Shown here: positions 2-8,325 of the stretch, one piece after another
Numbering within the stretch: position 1 is the stretch's first letter
Layout: each line of letters starts with the position of its first letter
From: a virus
IMG/VR virus record: IMGVR_UViG_3300006919_000435
Location: 1-24,077 of that record
Direction: 5' to 3' (one strand)
DNA length: 24,077 bases
The notes under the pieces: model-generated
Databases searched by the model: none
What the model saw: the letters and a program-made list of their open reading frames with translations, nothing else
What the model was told of the DNA's origin: nothing
Program-made: the position numbers and the translations under genes

Positions 2-163
2 TGGGACGCTACAAATGATGAATTTTGTTCTTCTAATGGATCTTATGGTATGAAAGAAACAAAAAAGATCAAAACGCTTACCGAACAAGCTAAAGAACAG
101 TCCATCTTTGAAAATATTATAGATCAAATAGACGCTATTGGAAAATATGAATTTAATTCTTAA
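2..163 (+). CDS. 3' end of an unrecognised protein (partial)
   Basis: An open frame enters from the left edge and runs 53 codons to TAA at 161-163. The visible C-terminus is hydrophilic, with a Lys-rich stretch (KETKKIKTL) followed by a predicted helix (EQAKEQSIFENIIDQIDAI). The other plus frames at the edge close quickly (TGA at 16-18 in frame 1). It is followed 45 bases later by another small plus-strand gene, so it probably belongs to the same rightward cluster of short phage genes. I recognise no family and cannot see the N-terminus. Confidence 0.5.
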   Translation, partial: WDATNDEFCSSNGSYGMKETKKIKTLTEQAKEQSIFENIIDQIDAIGKYEFNS

Positions 164-952: not shown

Positions 953-995
953 GAGAGCGCTACACTAGAGAGATCTAGATAGTAGCGCTCTCTAG
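953..995 (+). promoter_or_regulatory. Two mutually exclusive hairpins in the intergenic region
   Basis: GAGAGCGCTA (953-962) is perfectly complementary to TAGCGCTCTC (983-992), giving a 10-bp stem with a 20-base loop. CTAGAGAG (965-972) is perfectly complementary to CTCTCTAG (988-995), an 8-bp stem with a 15-base loop. Both use bases 988-992, so only one can form at a time. No T-tract follows, so this is not a standard intrinsic terminator. The rest of the 939-1128 gap holds a weak AT hairpin (GCAAAAA 1065-1071 with TTTTTGC 1075-1081) and an AT-rich promoter-like stretch. A processing site or conformational switch in the RNA is inference. Confidence 0.5.
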
Positions 996-1112
996 ATCTA
1001 GAAGACTTAAGTACGAGAATCTGCTATATATAGAAAAGGGGAAAACCGGGTTATAGATCCCATGGCAAAAATTTTTTTTGCAAATTTTCGTAGATTTTCC
1101 ATATAAGGAATT

Positions 1113-1128: not shown

Positions 1129-1230
1129 ATGAGCAAACGACAAACAGTAAGAGAAACAACTAAGAACGGAATTAAGACCCGCAAGACAGTCACCATTACC
1201 AGGAAGCGCGTAGGAAAGAGGAAGAAGTGA
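1129..1230 (+). CDS. Very small, highly basic protein, 33 residues
   Basis: ATG 1129 to TGA 1228-1230 encodes 33 residues, about 40% Lys or Arg, ending in RVGKRKK, with no cysteine or hydrophobic segment. The stop is one base before the ATG of the downstream PQ-loop gene (TGA-T-ATG), so the two are probably translationally coupled, and the GGAAAGAGGAAGAAG at the 3' end of this frame would be the ribosome site of the next gene. It may be a nucleic-acid-binding peptide, or the frame may exist mainly to carry ribosomes to the next gene. Codons such as CGC, ACC and AGG differ from the AT-rich usage of neighbours. No family recognised. Confidence 0.5.
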   Translation: MSKRQTVRETTKNGIKTRKTVTITRKRVGKRKK

Positions 1231-1231
1231 T

Positions 1232-1525
1232 ATGGAGAGTATATCAGAAATCATAAAGCAGACTTCTGGTATCCTGTTATCTGTATGTTTCGCAATAGCG
1301 TATTTCCCACAGATTATCAGGATGGTCAGGAATAAGAGCTCAAAAGATGTATCATTAGGTATGCTGATCCTCAACCTCGTAGGTTATTCATCAGGATTAC
1401 TATATGTTACAAGTAATGACATTGCAAGATTCTGGGTTGTAGTTAACTATACATCTGGTATTTGTATGACGATCCTGACTGTATTTTTCTGGAAGTACTA
1501 TATTCGGAAAGAGATTGAGCGGTAA
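1232..1525 (+). CDS. SemiSWEET/PQ-loop family membrane protein (possible sugar transporter)
   Basis: The 97-residue product has the layout of a bacterial SemiSWEET: three membrane helices at about 11-31, 43-61 and 66-89. The PQ motif (FPQ, residues 25-27) lies at the end of helix 1 and is followed by a basic cytoplasmic turn with the typical NKSSKDVSLG pattern (34-43). An Asn (N72) in helix 3 lies where the family usually has a substrate-facing Asn. SemiSWEETs act as dimers in the cytoplasmic membrane and move sugars down a gradient; related PQ-loop proteins move other small solutes, so the substrate is open. Length is normal for the family. The start is supported by a strong purine-rich site at 1211-1227 and by coupling to the preceding gene. 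Its presence in a phage structural genome is unusual. It may be an auxiliary metabolic gene, or a small membrane protein reused for another purpose. Confidence 0.85.
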   Translation: MESISEIIKQTSGILLSVCFAIAYFPQIIRMVRNKSSKDVSLGMLILNLVGYSSGLLYVTSNDIARFWVVVNYTSGICMTILTVFFWKYYIRKEIER

Positions 1526-1527
1526 AT

Positions 1528-1665
1528 ATGGTAAAGATGGTGATTAGAGTTAGGGACCGCCGGGTGAAAATCAGCTGCGGGCCGGAGAAGAAGGCTAGAT
1601 ATGAAAGAGAAAGTGAAGAAGATACGGTGTTTGATACCGTGGAATACAGGCACGAGGCTACATAA
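1528..1665 (+). CDS. Possible small charged protein, 45 residues
   Basis: ATG 1528 lies two bases after the stop of the PQ-loop gene (TAA-AT-ATG) and opens a 45-codon frame ending in TAA at 1663-1665. The product is strongly charged: an Arg/Lys-rich first half with one Cys (ISCG, 15-18) and an acidic second half (ESEEDT). Its last 65 bases overlap, in another frame, the start of the ArfA-like ORF at 1601. It may be a real coupled gene, or a leader that carries ribosomes to the ATG at 1601. The base composition is more GC-rich by eye than the rest of the window. No family recognised. Confidence 0.4.
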   Translation: MVKMVIRVRDRRVKISCGPEKKARYERESEEDTVFDTVEYRHEAT

Positions 1666-1768
1666 GCCTAAGAAGGGTAAAGGTTCCTATAATAGAAATA
1701 ACTTCAAGTCGGGTAAACAGCCCGACTTTTTTTGTGGAGTTTTTCGGTTTATATGTTATAAATATTAG
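1601..1768 (+). CDS. ArfA-like ribosome-rescue factor candidate, ORF spanning a terminator
   Basis: ATG 1601, with AAGG six bases upstream (1591-1594), opens a 55-codon frame to TAG 1766-1768. Residues 19-32 read RLHKPKKGKGSYNR. From memory, the matching part of Escherichia coli ArfA is RVEKNKKGKGSYMR, identical at 10 of 14 positions. ArfA binds stalled ribosomes, puts this basic segment in the empty mRNA channel and recruits RF2 to release peptides from non-stop mRNAs. The intrinsic terminator at 1706-1733 lies inside the frame, with its T-tract at codons 43-44 and no stop before it. Terminated transcripts would therefore be non-stop mRNAs encoding about 43 residues. Proteobacterial arfA is made from truncated non-stop messages in the same way, so that tmRNA keeps it off unless trans-translation fails. 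The N-terminal part is not clearly ArfA-like. The alternative is a generic basic phage peptide with a coincidental motif. Confidence 0.6.
   Translation: MKEKVKKIRCLIPWNTGTRLHKPKKGKGSYNRNNFKSGKQPDFFCGVFRFICYKY
1706..1733 (+). terminator. Intrinsic terminator inside the ArfA-like frame
   Basis: AAGTCGGG (1706-1713) pairs perfectly with CCCGACTT (1721-1728) around the loop TAAACAG, and T residues run from 1727 to 1733. This is a strong rho-independent terminator for the rightward small-gene cluster. It also separates the cluster from the late promoter of the outer membrane protein gene. It is in frame within the ORF at 1601, with no stop codon before it. Confidence 0.88.
1757..1764 (+). promoter_or_regulatory. 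T4-type late promoter box TATAAATA
   Basis: A perfect match to the T4 late promoter octamer lies between the terminator and the next gene, with 7 bases (TTAGGGT) between box and ATG 1772. In T4, transcription begins about six bases after the box, so the transcript would have a leader of at most a few bases. Confidence 0.75.
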
Positions 1769-1771
1769 GGT

Positions 1772-2506
1772 ATGAAGAAAACATTATTAACTATCTGTGC
1801 ATTGTTTGTTAGTATTAGCATTCAGGCGCAGACTAATGAAGTAAAGAAAACTATTATTAAACCTAGTTTCTCTGTTGAGGCAGGATACACTGATACTATT
1901 ATTAGTAAAGGTGTAAACTACACAGGAGAGGCTGCTAGATATATTGGACTATCATTGCATTCTCCAGCAGAGAATAACTTCATTCCAGTGGATTTATATG
2001 GTAATGGAATGGTTATCGCTGAAAACACTGATTCTTTCTGGAGCGTAGGTGCAGGTAAGACTCTATCTCTTGGTGGGTCTGATAAGTTTGCTCTACGTTT
2101 AGATGGTGTGTATACCACTCGTAGGACAGATCTTAACGTTCCTAGGAACAATGAGATTGCTGGTACTGTTGGATTAGTCACACCATGGGTGACTCCATTT
2201 GTTGGTTATACTCATGATTGGAGACTAGAGCAGAACGGTTTAACGTTCGGTCTAACTAAGTCGTATTCCATTGAGCTTAAGGGAGACGAGTGGTTTACGT
2301 TTGCTCCTAAGGTAGCCTATCATGTCTTTGAAGACTATGAGGCTGCAGAGGTTGGAGCTAAGCTCGCATTGACTAAATGGCAGTTATCTCCATTTGTTAG
2401 TGTGAACTATGTTGATAACGACTTCGATACTCAGAACTTCAATTTTGCTACTGCAGAAGTTGATGGTGATGTTATCTGGTCAGGTGGTTTATCTATCAAC
2501 TTCTAA
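1772..2506 (+). CDS. Outer membrane beta-barrel protein with signal peptide
   Basis: The 244-residue protein starts with a clear Sec signal peptide: MKK, a hydrophobic core to residue 17, then a signal peptidase I-like end (SIQA, cleavage near 19/20). The mature part alternates hydrophobic and polar residues as in amphipathic beta strands, is rich in Gly, Tyr, Trp and Thr, and ends GGLSINF; a terminal Phe is the classic outer-membrane assembly signal. Segments such as VEAGYTDTIISKGVNYTG resemble the first strands of small TorF/TIGR02001-type putative porins, a weak assignment. It is a single-gene unit between its own late promoter and a strong terminator. The product would go to the host outer membrane late in infection, where a role in superinfection exclusion, receptor masking or solute leakage is possible. 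It is not a virion protein by appearance. Confidence 0.8.
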   Translation: MKKTLLTICALFVSISIQAQTNEVKKTIIKPSFSVEAGYTDTIISKGVNYTGEAARYIGLSLHSPAENNFIPVDLYGNGMVIAENTDSFWSVGAGKTLSLGGSDKFALRLDGVYTTRRTDLNVPRNNEIAGTVGLVTPWVTPFVGYTHDWRLEQNGLTFGLTKSYSIELKGDEWFTFAPKVAYHVFEDYEAAEVGAKLALTKWQLSPFVSVNYVDNDFDTQNFNFATAEVDGDVIWSGGLSINF

Positions 2507-2866: not shown

Positions 2867-3079
2867 ATGAACGTAAGTGAATTTGAACGTACTAAACCTA
2901 CAATGACCTATCAAGCCATCAATAGCGCTATTAATAAGTATCAAACCCTATTAGAGAAATATCAGTTTAACGGTCAGCAATTAATTATGGAGAGTACTGA
3001 CGCGCAAACTGTAGCATGCTACAGAGAGTTTTTAAACGATCTTAATAATATTAAATCTCTCTTTATTGCAGGTCGTTAG
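2867..3079 (+). CDS. Small hypothetical protein, 70 residues
   Basis: The frame could begin with a TTG at 2834 inside the previous gene, or with ATG 2861 or ATG 2867. I prefer 2867 because it lies 5 bases after a perfect late promoter box, the same distance as at 19741. The product (MNVSEFERTKPTMTYQ at the start) is predicted mostly helical, with one Cys and no membrane segment. Its stop (3077-3079) overlaps by four bases the stop of the convergent 1749-residue gene on the other strand. I recognise no family. A late-expressed minor virion or assembly protein is possible but not shown. Confidence 0.65.
   Translation: MNVSEFERTKPTMTYQAINSAINKYQTLLEKYQFNGQQLIMESTDAQTVACYREFLNDLNNIKSLFIAGR
3009..3024. 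repeat. Perfect 16-bp palindrome near a convergent gene junction
   Basis: CTGTAGCATGCTACAG is a perfect palindrome inside the 70-residue gene, 52-67 bases beyond the stop of the leftward virion operon. As RNA it gives a 6-bp stem with a CATG loop on either strand. On the plus strand AGAGAG and five T follow; on the minus strand only TTT follows. It could terminate or protect the end of the leftward operon, but may be chance. Confidence 0.3.
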
Positions 3080-6000
3080 CGTATAATTGGATTGCTAGCC
3101 ATTATATTAATATTTATTACATCAGACGCCCAAGTTCCGCAATATTTATCACCGTAACACGGCTGGGTTCCGCACAAACCAGGCCAGCCATTTGGTGCTG
3201 ATTGATATGTCGGACCAAACCATGCATTTAACGCTTGAGCTCCTGTTCCGCCGAGTTCTGAATATGGCGCTTGGGTAGCGAGTTGTTCATCAACTTGCAC
3301 GGCTCTTCTAATTCCTCCAAAAACTTGAAACCAGTATACGTTGTAAAAAGTCGTGTACCCTAACATAGGAGCATCGTCAACGTCTTCGAAGAACCATTTT
3401 TTTGTCTCAGTACCGTCTTCAATAACGGTTTTTTGTACGAACGTCTTAATTCTCTTAAAATATTCTTTTATCTCTACCTGACCTAAAATATCACCTGAGT
3501 GATATCTTTTAAAATGTTCATCATCTAAATTAAATATTTGGCTGAAATGGCTCGCAGAGTACCAATTTTGCAAACCTGTTCCAGGCTTATAAAAAGCTTT
3601 TCCGTTTTTGGCGATTATTTGATGCTGATAACCAGTACCTGTATCAAAACTATCTGGTATCTTTGGTTCGAATTCAACTTCACCTTGTGAACTAGGTAAT
3701 TCAAACTTTATATATGCTGCACGATTGTCTCCTCCTAATGTAGGTGATCCTGTAATAAATTTGATTGTTAGTTTATCTTTTAAATATACTCCTTCTGGCC
3801 AGCTGGCACCCTCGACAGAAGTGCCTGCGGCGTCTGTAATGGTAATGTATCTTGTTAGGTCATCACCTACCGGCTCGAATGCTACATCCTTGTTTTCATT
3901 AATTTTACTAGTACCTATACCTACATCCGGGCGACCCCATGATTGTATTCCTCCCACATCATTTGGAGAAGAACCTTCGGGATTTATTTGAACTTGATCC
4001 CATGACTGCTGGGCCCAAAAAGTTAACTGTATTCTACCTGGTTTACAATCTGGTAATTTGTCTGGTTGTTCTTCACAAAGATCGCTCGTATGGCACCAAG
4101 ACCCTTCTTCTAAGCGGGAGAAATTTCGAGGATCATCACCCGGCATACAACATGGCTTTCCAACCCAACTACGTTCTGCATCGGTAACATCTCCGTAAGC
4201 TTGTATTCTACCATCTGCGGTTTCGCAAGCAATCTCTCCGTTGACAGTCTGATAAGTCCTACCACTATTAAATGCTTTACCATCACAGTATAGATATCCA
4301 GGCTCTTTATCATCACATAAACCATCTTCATGCGGACCTACATGGGTCACACCGTCTTTGATACAGCAAGGCTGATTTGATATTGACATTCTACCATAGC
4401 CATCTGTACCTGGCACACAAACATCATTATCATCTGTTATAGTAGTGCTTGTACATTCACCACCTGGGAACTCTATTACATAATCAGCTGTTCCTTCTAA
4501 TTGTCTAGAAGTAGCTTTAATAAAATTATATGGGTTATTTATATCAGGTAAACAACAACGACCATAAGCTTCTAGATCACCCGCTGTAAAGTTTGGATGC
4601 TCTAGTTTGAATTTATCAAGATCACCCAGCATCATTGTTCTTATGGATATAGAGCTTTTTATGATAGTATCATTAAAAATTGCTTCATTATATATCTCAC
4701 CATTGAGACAAAACGGTTGTGGATCAAGCTCTACTTCTATTTGTGGATCTGGTACTGGTTCTGGACATACTCCAGGGTCGTAACTAAACACATTCTCTCC
4801 AGGGCTTTTTAAGCAACACTCTTGATTGGTATTTGTACCATTATCATTATTCGTACCAATCCATATAGTACCGTTAAGCGAATCCGGGCCAAGCTGTAAA
4901 CATCTCAACACAGGTGGTTCATTATTAATTGAATTACCAGGAAATACATTACTAATAACTTTTAATCTATCTTCTACTATAATGTTACAATCCTCAGGGG
5001 TTGTGCCAGCAGGATCAGCTTTTATACCAACTATTTCATCATAATAAGGTATTATGTTTTTGAGCTCTTTATATATTTCTTCTTGAAGTTTATTGTTAAA
5101 AAACTTATTAGCAATATTTAAATTATGTATTTCAATATCATAATAGCTTGTATTTTTTTCTGGTACGTTAAACTTAAATACCTGATCAATAGTATCTACA
5201 TATGTGCGTTGACCAACAGGGATAGACCATACAGCATCTCTATTTAAGTTATGATAATTATACAGTACACTTATATCTTTATATTCAAGAGCTTTTTTGT
5301 ATAATCTAAAACCTCTGAAGTTAATATTTTTAAGAAAATACTTTCTTTGTTGTTGTAATCTACCTGCAAATGTTAGGTAGTAAGGTGTACTCAGCGCACC
5401 AAGAAATATACCTGAACCTAAAGGATTATCTAACAAGAAAGAGCCACCCTGGAACGCAGCTCGTTCAACTTTACGACCATTAATATATAGATCCATCCAA
5501 CCTTGAGTAAGATTTATATTAACAGCGAAATGATTATACCCTGAGCTTAATTTAGTGATATCATATGTAATAACTGATTTTGACTTCTTGAATGTACCTG
5601 TTTTAGAAAATTTAGGCTTAGTTTTAAGTATAACCTTAAACTTACTTTTAGATGCTTTATATTTTTTGAGATAATAAAAACTTGTAATAGATTTAGTTAA
5701 AGCTAAACTATTGACCGCACGCTGGCCAATATTTTTAGATAAAACTAAATTGAAATCTTTATCAATTTTATGTAAGTATGTGTATCCCTCAGATGCACCA
5801 GAGTTTCTTTTCTCTACAATCAAATAATACTTCTTGTATACATCTTCTTCAAAATCTAAGATTACATCAAGATATAAAGTTGAATCTGGTTGTATGAAAG
5901 TAAGATCTTTAAAGCTTATTAATTCTCTATTAGTTTTGAGTCTTGCTATTCTATTATTATCATAAATTGTTATAAGATTATCTTCATCATCTACAATAAT

Positions 6001-8325
6001 ATTAGTAACTACAGATTCAAAGTTACCACCTGAAACTTCTATAGAGTTAGTATTATTACTAACAAACTGACCTTTATATATAAAATTATAAGGAGTATTT
6101 TCTACATCTGGTAATTTTTGTCTAATAGTATATGTGACATCATTATTGTCTACAGCAGTTTCATTACCTGTAGCGATATTTGCATCTGCAGTTGTAAATA
6201 TAATACTATTTGCTCTATTAGGTTTGATATATAATTTTTGTTTATCGTCTTTAAATTCTACACCCTGATCTATTTCAGCATCATATGAAGTATTGTTATC
6301 AAAATTAAAAAAGTATAATTTATTATTACCTAAAGCTACATAAATTTTATTTTCTGTAACATCCATATCATGGACAGTTACATTTTTATTTGCTAATACA
6401 TTTAATTTAGTTATAAGATTAGGGCTAGAATTATAAACGTAAATTATATTATTTTTTCCTAATACATAAAATTGATCGAAATTGTCTTTACGAGCTATAC
6501 CTTTTATTTCTACAGGTTTATCTTCTTCAAATATTTCTAGTTCATCATAAATTTCTAAATCGTTATTAAGAAATAAAACTTTGTTTTCGAACGGCAATAA
6601 TATATTAGGGGTAACATAATCTGTATTAAATATACCAAATCCTTCTTCAAAGTAATTACCTAGTAAAGAATAACCTAATGGTTTAGTATAATCATCAGCA
6701 CTAAGCCAAAAACTGAAACACATATCTCCAGTATGATCAGTAGTAAACTTACCGAACCTATCTCCATTGCAATTTAGAACTAAGTCGTTTTTGTCATAAG
6801 TGTAAGGGGCTGATGCGCCCTTGAATGTTAATACTCTTAAATTATCTGTAAGATTATAATCCTTTAAAGTATTAATATAACTTTCGTAATCTTGCTCGCC
6901 AATATGGTAATAAGCATAATCATTATTACCTTCAAAAGTAAGCCTTGAGCTAATATCAAATACATATGTAGTATTCATATTAGCGTTCGTCACTGTTGTA
7001 TAAAAGCTAGAACCAGAAAACGCAGATGAAAAGTCAGTTGCTTCTGGATTATAATATCTATCTACCCACAATTGCTCTCCGGCTTCATTACCTGATAGCC
7101 AGCTACATAAGTATGTTGCATTAACGTCGTCAGTAAAATTATTGTTCTTAACATCTAATCTGCGCTTGAATACTTTATCAGCTATCAAAGGATTATCTCC
7201 CGCAACACCACCAATTTTACCTATCTTAGAATCATTTATATTAAGTCTATCATAAGGAGCAATAGTTGATGGGGTGGTAAAATACGTGAGCCTTGAAGGT
7301 GGAAAATGTACATCCTTTGTTCCAGTATTGTAAGTTAAATATATTTTATCGTAACCGTAATTTTCATTTAACCCTGAAAATATTTTATCATATGATCTAT
7401 TAAGGTAATCTGGTTCAGAATTATAATGATTAGAAGGTACGTTTATTTCTTCAATAGTAGATTGGTTCTTTAAAGGTATGATATCAAAACCTACTGTTGT
7501 ATCATTAGGATACATCATATCACAATAGTCCATTGTGTATAAGCTAGTGAATCCTAGGTAATTGTTACTTACATAGTTTGTTGATGTATCAAGATTTAAA
7601 GCAACATCGCTACTATTAAAACTACCTAAATAAAAGCTAAAAACGTTGTTTAAGTTTTTTCTATTTTTGGTTAATACATTTCTTGATACTTCAAATACAG
7701 AACTAACAGAATTACCTGCATCTGTACTTGTGAGCTGTAAAGTATTGGTTAGGATAACTTGATATTTGTTATTAGGATATTGTAAGTCTCTATAAGGAAA
7801 TAATTTAAGCTTATTGTCTTCAAGAACATATTCAAATAAGTGAGCACTCAAACTTGGTTGTCCTGAAGATAGATAAATAGATTCACTAGAGCAATACGCA
7901 TAATATGTGCTATTGTCTATTTCTTTTGTAAGATATAAAAATCTATTTGTACTTAAATTAATAGTAAAAAAGTAATTACTATCTAATTTATTAAAATTTG
8001 TACTATACGTTAAAGCAGTATTTACTGTATCAACTTTAATATAATTATGATTATACTTTAAATATGTAGTAAACTGATTGTCACTATAAAAAGTGTATGG
8101 TGAACGGAGCTCTACGATAGAGCTCAGACTTTGTAGATCAGATAAAAAATAAGCTGTTTGAAAGTTTGTTTTTCTATCTCTTAAACGATCAAAAATTCTA
8201 TATGATTTTAATTGTAAACCAAAATCAAAGCTTTCAGTATTATTTTTAAACAAAAGAGTATCATCAGGAACATGTCTTAATGTTACTGGTTTACTTACAA
8301 TTGTATCAAAATCTACTATTTTCAT
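3076..8325 (-). CDS. Giant tail adhesin/fibre: split LamG-like domain plus Cys-rich repeats
   Basis: At 1749 residues this is the largest gene and the last of the leftward virion operon, the usual place for tail-tip or fibre proteins. Residues 1-530 are Tyr/Asn/Ser-rich beta-type sequence. A LamG/concanavalin-like sandwich appears to start near 535 (MCFSFWLSADDY) and resume at 926-1030 (GYNHFAVNI, WMDLYINGRK, FRGFRLYKKAL). The roughly 350 residues between have propeller-like strands (FYVLGKNNIIYVYN, KIYVALGNNKLYFFN). A Cys-rich region follows with CC pairs at 1170, 1257, 1320 and 1392. The final 350 residues are beta-rich, with WGRP and a Gly/Cys/Trp-rich end (about 1715-1735). No signal peptide or membrane segment. 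Its ATG overlaps the preceding stop (TAATG). Glycan or protein binding at the host surface is inferred from the folds; I recognise no catalytic motif. Confidence 0.8.
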   Translation of the reverse strand: MKIVDFDTIVSKPVTLRHVPDDTLLFKNNTESFDFGLQLKSYRIFDRLRDRKTNFQTAYFLSDLQSLSSIVELRSPYTFYSDNQFTTYLKYNHNYIKVDTVNTALTYSTNFNKLDSNYFFTINLSTNRFLYLTKEIDNSTYYAYCSSESIYLSSGQPSLSAHLFEYVLEDNKLKLFPYRDLQYPNNKYQVILTNTLQLTSTDAGNSVSSVFEVSRNVLTKNRKNLNNVFSFYLGSFNSSDVALNLDTSTNYVSNNYLGFTSLYTMDYCDMMYPNDTTVGFDIIPLKNQSTIEEINVPSNHYNSEPDYLNRSYDKIFSGLNENYGYDKIYLTYNTGTKDVHFPPSRLTYFTTPSTIAPYDRLNINDSKIGKIGGVAGDNPLIADKVFKRRLDVKNNNFTDDVNATYLCSWLSGNEAGEQLWVDRYYNPEATDFSSAFSGSSFYTTVTNANMNTTYVFDISSRLTFEGNNDYAYYHIGEQDYESYINTLKDYNLTDNLRVLTFKGASAPYTYDKNDLVLNCNGDRFGKFTTDHTGDMCFSFWLSADDYTKPLGYSLLGNYFEEGFGIFNTDYVTPNILLPFENKVLFLNNDLEIYDELEIFEEDKPVEIKGIARKDNFDQFYVLGKNNIIYVYNSSPNLITKLNVLANKNVTVHDMDVTENKIYVALGNNKLYFFNFDNNTSYDAEIDQGVEFKDDKQKLYIKPNRANSIIFTTADANIATGNETAVDNNDVTYTIRQKLPDVENTPYNFIYKGQFVSNNTNSIEVSGGNFESVVTNIIVDDEDNLITIYDNNRIARLKTNRELISFKDLTFIQPDSTLYLDVILDFEEDVYKKYYLIVEKRNSGASEGYTYLHKIDKDFNLVLSKNIGQRAVNSLALTKSITSFYYLKKYKASKSKFKVILKTKPKFSKTGTFKKSKSVITYDITKLSSGYNHFAVNINLTQGWMDLYINGRKVERAAFQGGSFLLDNPLGSGIFLGALSTPYYLTFAGRLQQQRKYFLKNINFRGFRLYKKALEYKDISVLYNYHNLNRDAVWSIPVGQRTYVDTIDQVFKFNVPEKNTSYYDIEIHNLNIANKFFNNKLQEEIYKELKNIIPYYDEIVGIKADPAGTTPEDCNIIVEDRLKVISNVFPGNSINNEPPVLRCLQLGPDSLNGTIWIGTNNDNGTNTNQECCLKSPGENVFSYDPGVCPEPVPDPQIEVELDPQPFCLNGEIYNEAIFNDTIIKSSISIRTMMLGDLDKFKLEHPNFTAGDLEAYGRCCLPDINNPYNFIKATSRQLEGTADYVIEFPGGECTSTTITDDNDVCVPGTDGYGRMSISNQPCCIKDGVTHVGPHEDGLCDDKEPGYLYCDGKAFNSGRTYQTVNGEIACETADGRIQAYGDVTDAERSWVGKPCCMPGDDPRNFSRLEEGSWCHTSDLCEEQPDKLPDCKPGRIQLTFWAQQSWDQVQINPEGSSPNDVGGIQSWGRPDVGIGTSKINENKDVAFEPVGDDLTRYITITDAAGTSVEGASWPEGVYLKDKLTIKFITGSPTLGGDNRAAYIKFELPSSQGEVEFEPKIPDSFDTGTGYQHQIIAKNGKAFYKPGTGLQNWYSASHFSQIFNLDDEHFKRYHSGDILGQVEIKEYFKRIKTFVQKTVIEDGTETKKWFFEDVDDAPMLGYTTFYNVYWFQVFGGIRRAVQVDEQLATQAPYSELGGTGAQALNAWFGPTYQSAPNGWPGLCGTQPCYGDKYCGTWASDVININIMASNPIIR

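Follow-up and report, generated by a model that had tools for sequence, protein, structure and literature searches.

A short gene in a T4-like phage encodes a 97-aa protein that belongs beyond doubt to the PQ-loop family (PF04193). It is a real gene of an apparently undescribed phage branch of that family, in which the aligned positions of the cargo pocket are rebuilt relative to the sugar-transporting SemiSWEETs. On the strength of a structural model and of residue conservation among phage relatives, the protein is held, with moderate confidence, to be one half of a homodimeric facilitator for a small polar solute. The gene lies in a 24,077-base virus fragment, which is called the window below; relatives on other viral contigs are given by handles of the form L002.

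Family assignment and gene setting

The window carries two baseplate wedge families (phrog_219 and phrog_261), the sliding-clamp loader (phrog_168) and a dUTPase, and is part of a T4-like myovirus. A sequence-only reading of this DNA had described a complete three-helix protein with a PQ motif in a phage, and both the protein and its phage setting were borne out. The PQ motif at residues 26 and 27 and the family-typical loop NKSSKDVSL lie in a complete open reading frame (Table 1), and Pfam PF04193 matched the product with 45.3 bits (E 7.5e-12, cut-off 22), far beyond chance; the same profile matched 19 of 19 phage family members. A profile comparison with the MtN3, SemiSWEET and PQ-loop families thus places the protein inside the PQ-loop family. 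The more specific label of that reading, a SemiSWEET sugar uniporter, was not supported, since the score for MtN3_slv (PF03083) was 22.1 bits, under the curated cut-off of 23.7, that for NCBIfam SemiSWEET_2 was 33.6 bits, far under the cut-off of 80, and all the phage proteins compared have other residues in place of the pocket Trp and the Thr that supports it (see below). The lysosomal cystine transporter model TIGR00951 gave a weaker match (29 bits). Placement in the SemiSWEET family is denied by the curated models, and the architecture is SemiSWEET-like.

Among solved structures, the best single-sequence matches were the SemiSWEET 9kax (4e-7) and cystinosin (8e-6), and an alignment profile matched the SemiSWEETs 4rng (2.7e-8) and 9kax (4e-8). 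Comparison of the phage family with SemiSWEETs by hhalign gave 96.8%. The family matches are strong only across TM1-TM2.

Table 1. Features of the window and of related phage contigs (helices are given in residues of the 97-aa protein, all other positions in nucleotides)
Feature	Location	Position	Strand	Remarks
Basic peptide, 33 aa, Lys/Arg-rich	window	1129-1230	+	stop TGA 1 nt before the PQ-loop ATG
PQ-loop protein gene	window	1232-1525	+	complete ORF, 97 aa, three helices; PF04193, AlphaFold2, Foldseek/VIA, dN/dS
Helices of the 97-aa protein	residues	TM1 2-34; TM2 42-61; TM3 67-96		TM1 broken at P26-Q27
Codons of P26-Q27	window	1307-1312	+	PQ motif
Codons of family-invariant residues	window	F20 1289-1291; G55 1394-1396; W68 1433-1435; N72-Y73 1445-1450	+	
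Basic peptide, 45 aa	window	1528-1665	+	directly downstream of the PQ-loop gene
ArfA-like ORF, 55 codons	window	1601-1768	+	motif HKPKKGKGSYNR; overlaps the 45-aa ORF in another frame
Intrinsic terminator	window	1706-1733	+	9-bp stem, 7-T tract; inside the ArfA-like frame, natural end of the cluster; terminator scan
244-aa protein	window	1772-2506	+	apparent signal peptide; conserved neighbor, synteny marker
Permuted tmRNA	L016	5415-5723	-	
Permuted tmRNA	L017	6772-7080	+	
Permuted tmRNA	L018	1215-1605	-	
dCMP-deaminase-like/PQ-loop region	L036	5554-6270		
dCMP-deaminase-like/PQ-loop region	L038	5541-6255		
dCMP-deaminase-like/PQ-loop region	L041	5564-6285		
dCMP-deaminase-like/PQ-loop region	L043	5561-6327		

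As the same reading had noticed, the gene belongs to a tight run of tiny genes (33, 97 and 45 codons, the last overlapped by one of 55), and it stands close behind the gene of the 33-aa basic peptide. The spacing of 1 nt between the stop codon of the peptide and the PQ-loop start is identical in L002 and L003, and in L004 stop and start overlap as TGATG; judged by these relatives, the tight spacing is a conserved trait, and it fits a putative translational coupling. Searches of Pfam and NCBIfam gave no match for the 33-aa peptide or for the 45-aa peptide, the latter having a counterpart of 31 aa in L002 and one shortened at its start in L003. The 244-aa protein, for which Pfam and PHROG gave no match, probably has an outer-membrane location. 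The order of the 33-aa peptide, the PQ-loop gene and the 244-aa gene is the same in the IMG/VR contigs L002, L003 and L004, and a search with the 244-aa neighbor as query returned the same three contigs, so related phages do carry the gene in the same place. Between the window and these close relatives, pairwise dN of the PQ-loop gene is 0.03-0.13 and dS 0.56-1.48 (dN/dS roughly 0.04-0.17); the gene is under purifying selection.

Two further observations concern the surroundings of this cluster. A strong, imperfect inverted repeat, GAGAGCGCTACACTAGAGAGATCTAGA...GTAGCGCTCTC, lies upstream of it in three of the four phages (window 960-1010, L002 1942-1992, L004 1540-1585) and is a candidate terminator or regulatory element. 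On the opposite strand of the window, positions 3076-8325 encode a tail-type protein of 1749 aa without a PHROG match, whose C-terminal part is wholly different in L002 (1499 aa), L003 (1098 aa) and L004 (1144 aa), which suggests a rapidly exchanged host-contact region.

Phage relatives and their neighborhoods

Scans with an alignment profile and with a degenerate-codon pattern, AY.PQ(x7)KS..D[VI]S[LF], which by itself yielded seven further viral contigs, found relatives on at least 20 IMG/VR phage contigs besides the window. Their loci fall into several unrelated phage neighborhoods. The first is the gp33-gp59-gp32/flagellin-like/ThyX region of T4-like phages, in which these families were confirmed and which resembles the Melnitz region (PMC9004378). 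Flagellin-like genes occur near the PQ-loop gene in L017 (9826-10674, with Pfam Flagellin_N and Flagellin_C), L022 (7401-8312), L016 (1863-2711), L015 (583-1443) and L033 (6470-7381), and they adjoin gp33 wherever the T4-like contig reaches far enough. In a second neighborhood, a dCMP-deaminase-like gene lies directly before the PQ-loop start or overlaps it (L036, L038, L041 and L043; confirmed by Pfam in L038 and assigned by eye in the other three). This neighbor is possibly a hint at the cargo, or may merely reflect shared early expression. The PQ-loop gene of L040 adjoins an endolysin and a dUTPase-like gene, and L037 and L039 have one further neighborhood in common.

Among named phage records, tblastn gave insignificant matches only, and there is no specific PHROG for this PQ-loop family. 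A SemiSWEET-like match in MT837855 was rejected as a phage relative: it has the classical Trp and glycosyltransferase-like and MFS-like neighbors, the record is marked UNVERIFIED, and it is probably a bacterial contig. No relative of the phage family was found on plasmids, where the same search with the E. coli SemiSWEET as query returned 394 plasmids, nor in 84,980 cellular genomes, by scans that depend on short exact peptides.

Among the papers accessible to the search, none tied a phage to SemiSWEET or PQ-loop proteins in this sense. Viral PQ-loop proteins in general are already known, so that the occurrence of one in a phage is no novelty by itself. The BFVD holds several proteins from viruses that have a single PQ-loop repeat and are predicted to fold in the same way, namely A0A6J7X7D0 of an uncultured Caudovirales phage, A0A8S5P1N9 of Myoviridae sp. 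ctrf010, which is named 'SemiSWEET', and proteins of Mimiviridae and Megaviridae. Their identity to the phage protein is no more than 10-27% in the aligned parts.

Ribosome-rescue neighbors

The 55-codon frame that overlaps the 45-aa ORF resembles ArfA in its motif, KKGKGSY.R (KKGKGSYNR in the phage ORF), and in a terminator placed before the stop codon. Such an in-frame terminator is what yields the non-stop messages from which ArfA, and likewise BrfA, is produced (PMC8012679). The hairpin of the phage terminator has -14 kcal/mol, and its in-frame placement is the same in L003 and L004, thus in three of the four phages of the window group. The product of the frame would therefore probably be made from a non-stop message, with the mRNA presumably ending at the terminator. 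Pfam ArfA (PF03889) gave 23.6 bits (E 3.5e-5) for the window, 22.0 for L003 (ORF at 673-834) and 21.5 for L004 (ORF at 2179-2310), all below the cut-off of 25.5, and L002 is without the ORF. Only profile positions 25-42 were matched, and the N-terminal part of ArfA that contacts RF2 is unrecognizable in the phage ORF. Short basic peptides with HKPKKGKG[SA]Y.R occur in eight further viral contigs, L047-L054 (at about 3001; at 1036 in L047), mostly with ordinary stop codons; in L050 a hairpin and T-run span the stop codon.

A second type of rescue gene was found in L016, L017 and L018, where the PQ-loop gene is directly preceded by a permuted tmRNA (Rfam RF04321, tmRNA_permuted). The encoded tags are GNNQLPMAA, GNNQLKMAA and GNYNQLPMAA, respectively, and in L018 a tRNA-Ala is located between the two tmRNA pieces. 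An Rfam scan of the window group gave no match.

The position of these genes, the ArfA-like ORF just behind the PQ-loop gene in three of the four window-group phages and the tmRNA directly upstream in three other contigs, could be taken to mean that the PQ-loop gene is part of a ribosome-rescue module. This is very improbable. The eight other contigs with KGKGSY peptides have no PQ-loop gene within about 1-3 kb around the peptide, no KGKGSY peptide is encoded in the DNA examined around PQ-loop loci that lie outside the window group, and most PQ-loop loci have no nearby tmRNA. Moreover, tmRNA is common anyway in the Melnitz-like phages with this neighborhood, being present in 17 of 47 contigs (PMC9004378). 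Co-occurrence speaks against a functional link as a general rule, and the association looks like a coincidence. Because neither neighbor tracks the PQ-loop gene across the compared contigs, the ArfA-like ORF and the tmRNA are treated here as separate observations.

Predicted fold, pocket and probable cargo

The protein was modeled as a monomer by AlphaFold2, template-free, from an alignment of 19 phage sequences (pLDDT 90.8, pTM 0.76); this run replaced an earlier one with four near-identical sequences, in which pLDDT was 51 and the Foldseek matches were meaningless. The model has helices at residues 2-22, 25-34, 42-61 and 67-96, and the break in TM1 falls exactly at the PQ motif. Foldseek placed SemiSWEET chains on top, with 4rng_C first (E 5.9e-3, probability 1.00, TM 0.84 by target), although the E-values of all SemiSWEET matches were above 0.001. 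The best match by VIA-align was again 4rng (Z 11.8, 1.7 A over 83 residues), a Z value that is not unique among helical bundles. Because fold match, profile match and PQ kink agree, the protein is assigned, as modeled, the SemiSWEET fold, in which the PQ motif interrupts TM1. Such a likeness does not by itself imply transport, because some proteins with the PQ-loop fold, such as the KDEL receptor, are receptors.

With the bacterial SemiSWEETs of E. coli (4x5m/4x5n), L. biflexa (4qnc) and B. japonicum (9kax), and with 4rng, the phage proteins have in common three TM helices per chain, the PQ-kinked TM1, the fold and a conserved loop, K/R-[ST]-x-x-D/G-[IV]-S. They differ in falling under the curated family cut-offs, in a TM2-TM3 loop that is one to two residues longer, and in a new invariant W68 and NY..G..M on TM3. 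Across the 19 aligned phage proteins, G13, F20, P26, Q27, S37, D39, V40, S41, M44, G51, G55, W68, N72, Y73, G76 and M79 are invariant. Conservation is one-sided in TM2 (p 0.008) and TM3 (p 0.0008, permutation over the 19 proteins), and such a single conserved face of both helices is compatible with what would be expected for a pore or a dimer interface.

A rival reading is that the PQ-loop protein does not transport but serves to time lysis, to exclude superinfecting phages or to scaffold the membrane, roles for which phages commonly use small multi-helix membrane proteins. A GH108 endolysin is indeed nearby in L017 and L040, beside small candidate holins without a family match, but these other membrane proteins leave both phages with holins at hand, and the neighborhoods differ among lineages. 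Holins, moreover, need neither a conserved PQ hinge nor conserved TM2 and TM3 faces (Trp68, Asn72, Tyr73 and two glycines). Transport accounts better than lysis or exclusion for the conservation of the hinge and of the two faces, and a non-transport function is regarded as possible but quite improbable.

The cargo pocket of the E. coli SemiSWEET is lined by Trp50 and Asn66, with Thr15 holding the Trp in place, and Pro21 is an essential hinge (PMC4309421). In an ungapped alignment of TM1-TM2, Phe20 and Gly55 of the phage protein correspond to Thr15 and Trp50; Phe and Gly occupy these positions in 19 of 19 phage proteins, Thr and Trp in four of four compared SemiSWEETs. The counterpart of Asn66 is N72 by profile alignment and Y73 by multiple alignment, the TM3 register being uncertain by one residue. 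The residue at position 48 is polar throughout, being Asn in 14, Gln in three and Thr in two of the 19. As to the SemiSWEET outer gate, Tyr53-Arg57-Asp59, the phage proteins have Tyr58 in 16 of 19; an Arg/Asp pair is not fixed among them, and the loop length there differs. As aligned, the phage pocket is rebuilt relative to the sugar SemiSWEETs, and the sugar label is therefore not transferable from them.

That the protein is nevertheless a true SemiSWEET, a sugar uniporter altering the sugar flux or osmotic balance of the infected cell, is unlikely. SemiSWEETs are its closest fold and closest profile among solved structures, and the PQ hinge is invariant. Loss of the Trp can also be accommodated: the residue is dispensable in the E. 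coli SemiSWEET, and sugar cargo remains compatible because the W50A variant even increases sucrose uptake (PMC4309421). The same source, however, reports that the Trp is needed for glucose in a Leptospira SemiSWEET and in AtSWEET1. The missed MtN3_slv and SemiSWEET cut-offs, the replacement of both members of the Thr-Trp pair in every phage protein and the cystinosin-like pocket positions argue in the same direction.

Cystinosin, the lysosomal H+/cystine symporter (8dkw, 8dyp, 7zk1), shares the PQ-loop repeat. The phage F20 aligns with its W138, and N48 with N166 in repeat 1 and D305 in repeat 2; of these cystinosin residues, Trp138 and Asp305 are involved in moving cystine (PMC9385667). Asn48 was discarded as a fixed cystinosin-like residue, since the position is polar but variable. 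Cystinosin carries two different repeats in a single chain of seven helices, whereas the phage protein has 97 aa, three helices and one repeat, and would therefore have to self-pair if it worked like cystinosin. It is possible, if doubtful, that this phage-specific branch with its Gly/Phe pocket, present in many T4-like and other phages, is a homodimeric non-sugar transporter, of amino acids or nucleosides, with cystinosin-like activity at half size.

The preferred reading, a homodimeric facilitator, leaves the cargo wider, because the pocket differs from that of the sugar SemiSWEETs: a metabolite resembling an amino acid, or some other small polar compound, would be as likely as a sugar. Two three-helix copies would pair in the host inner membrane, giving a six-helix dimer whose single central pocket lies between the two chains. 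A hinge at the PQ bend of helix 1 (Pro26) would flip the transporter as in bacterial SemiSWEETs, and the invariance of P26 supports this by analogy, the equivalent Pro being essential in the E. coli protein (PMC4309421). The wall aromatic of the pocket would come from helix 1 (Phe20) and not from helix 2, where Trp is replaced by Gly55, and the pocket may also include the invariant Trp68 and Asn72/Tyr73 of helix 3 and the polar residue at 48. A small polar solute would thereby equilibrate across the host inner membrane during infection, presumably to the benefit of the phage.

Phages with solute transporters of their own are few, and this one would be about the smallest possible transporter. 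When viral genes are labeled automatically, for instance as 'SemiSWEET sugar transporter', the cargo may be misstated. Transport of a specific non-sugar solute by phages with this protein, if true, would be more exciting. The swapped pocket in a conserved phage family constitutes a natural test of the cargo determinants in PQ-loop proteins, and the same family also tests which metabolite a phage must move into or out of the infected cell.
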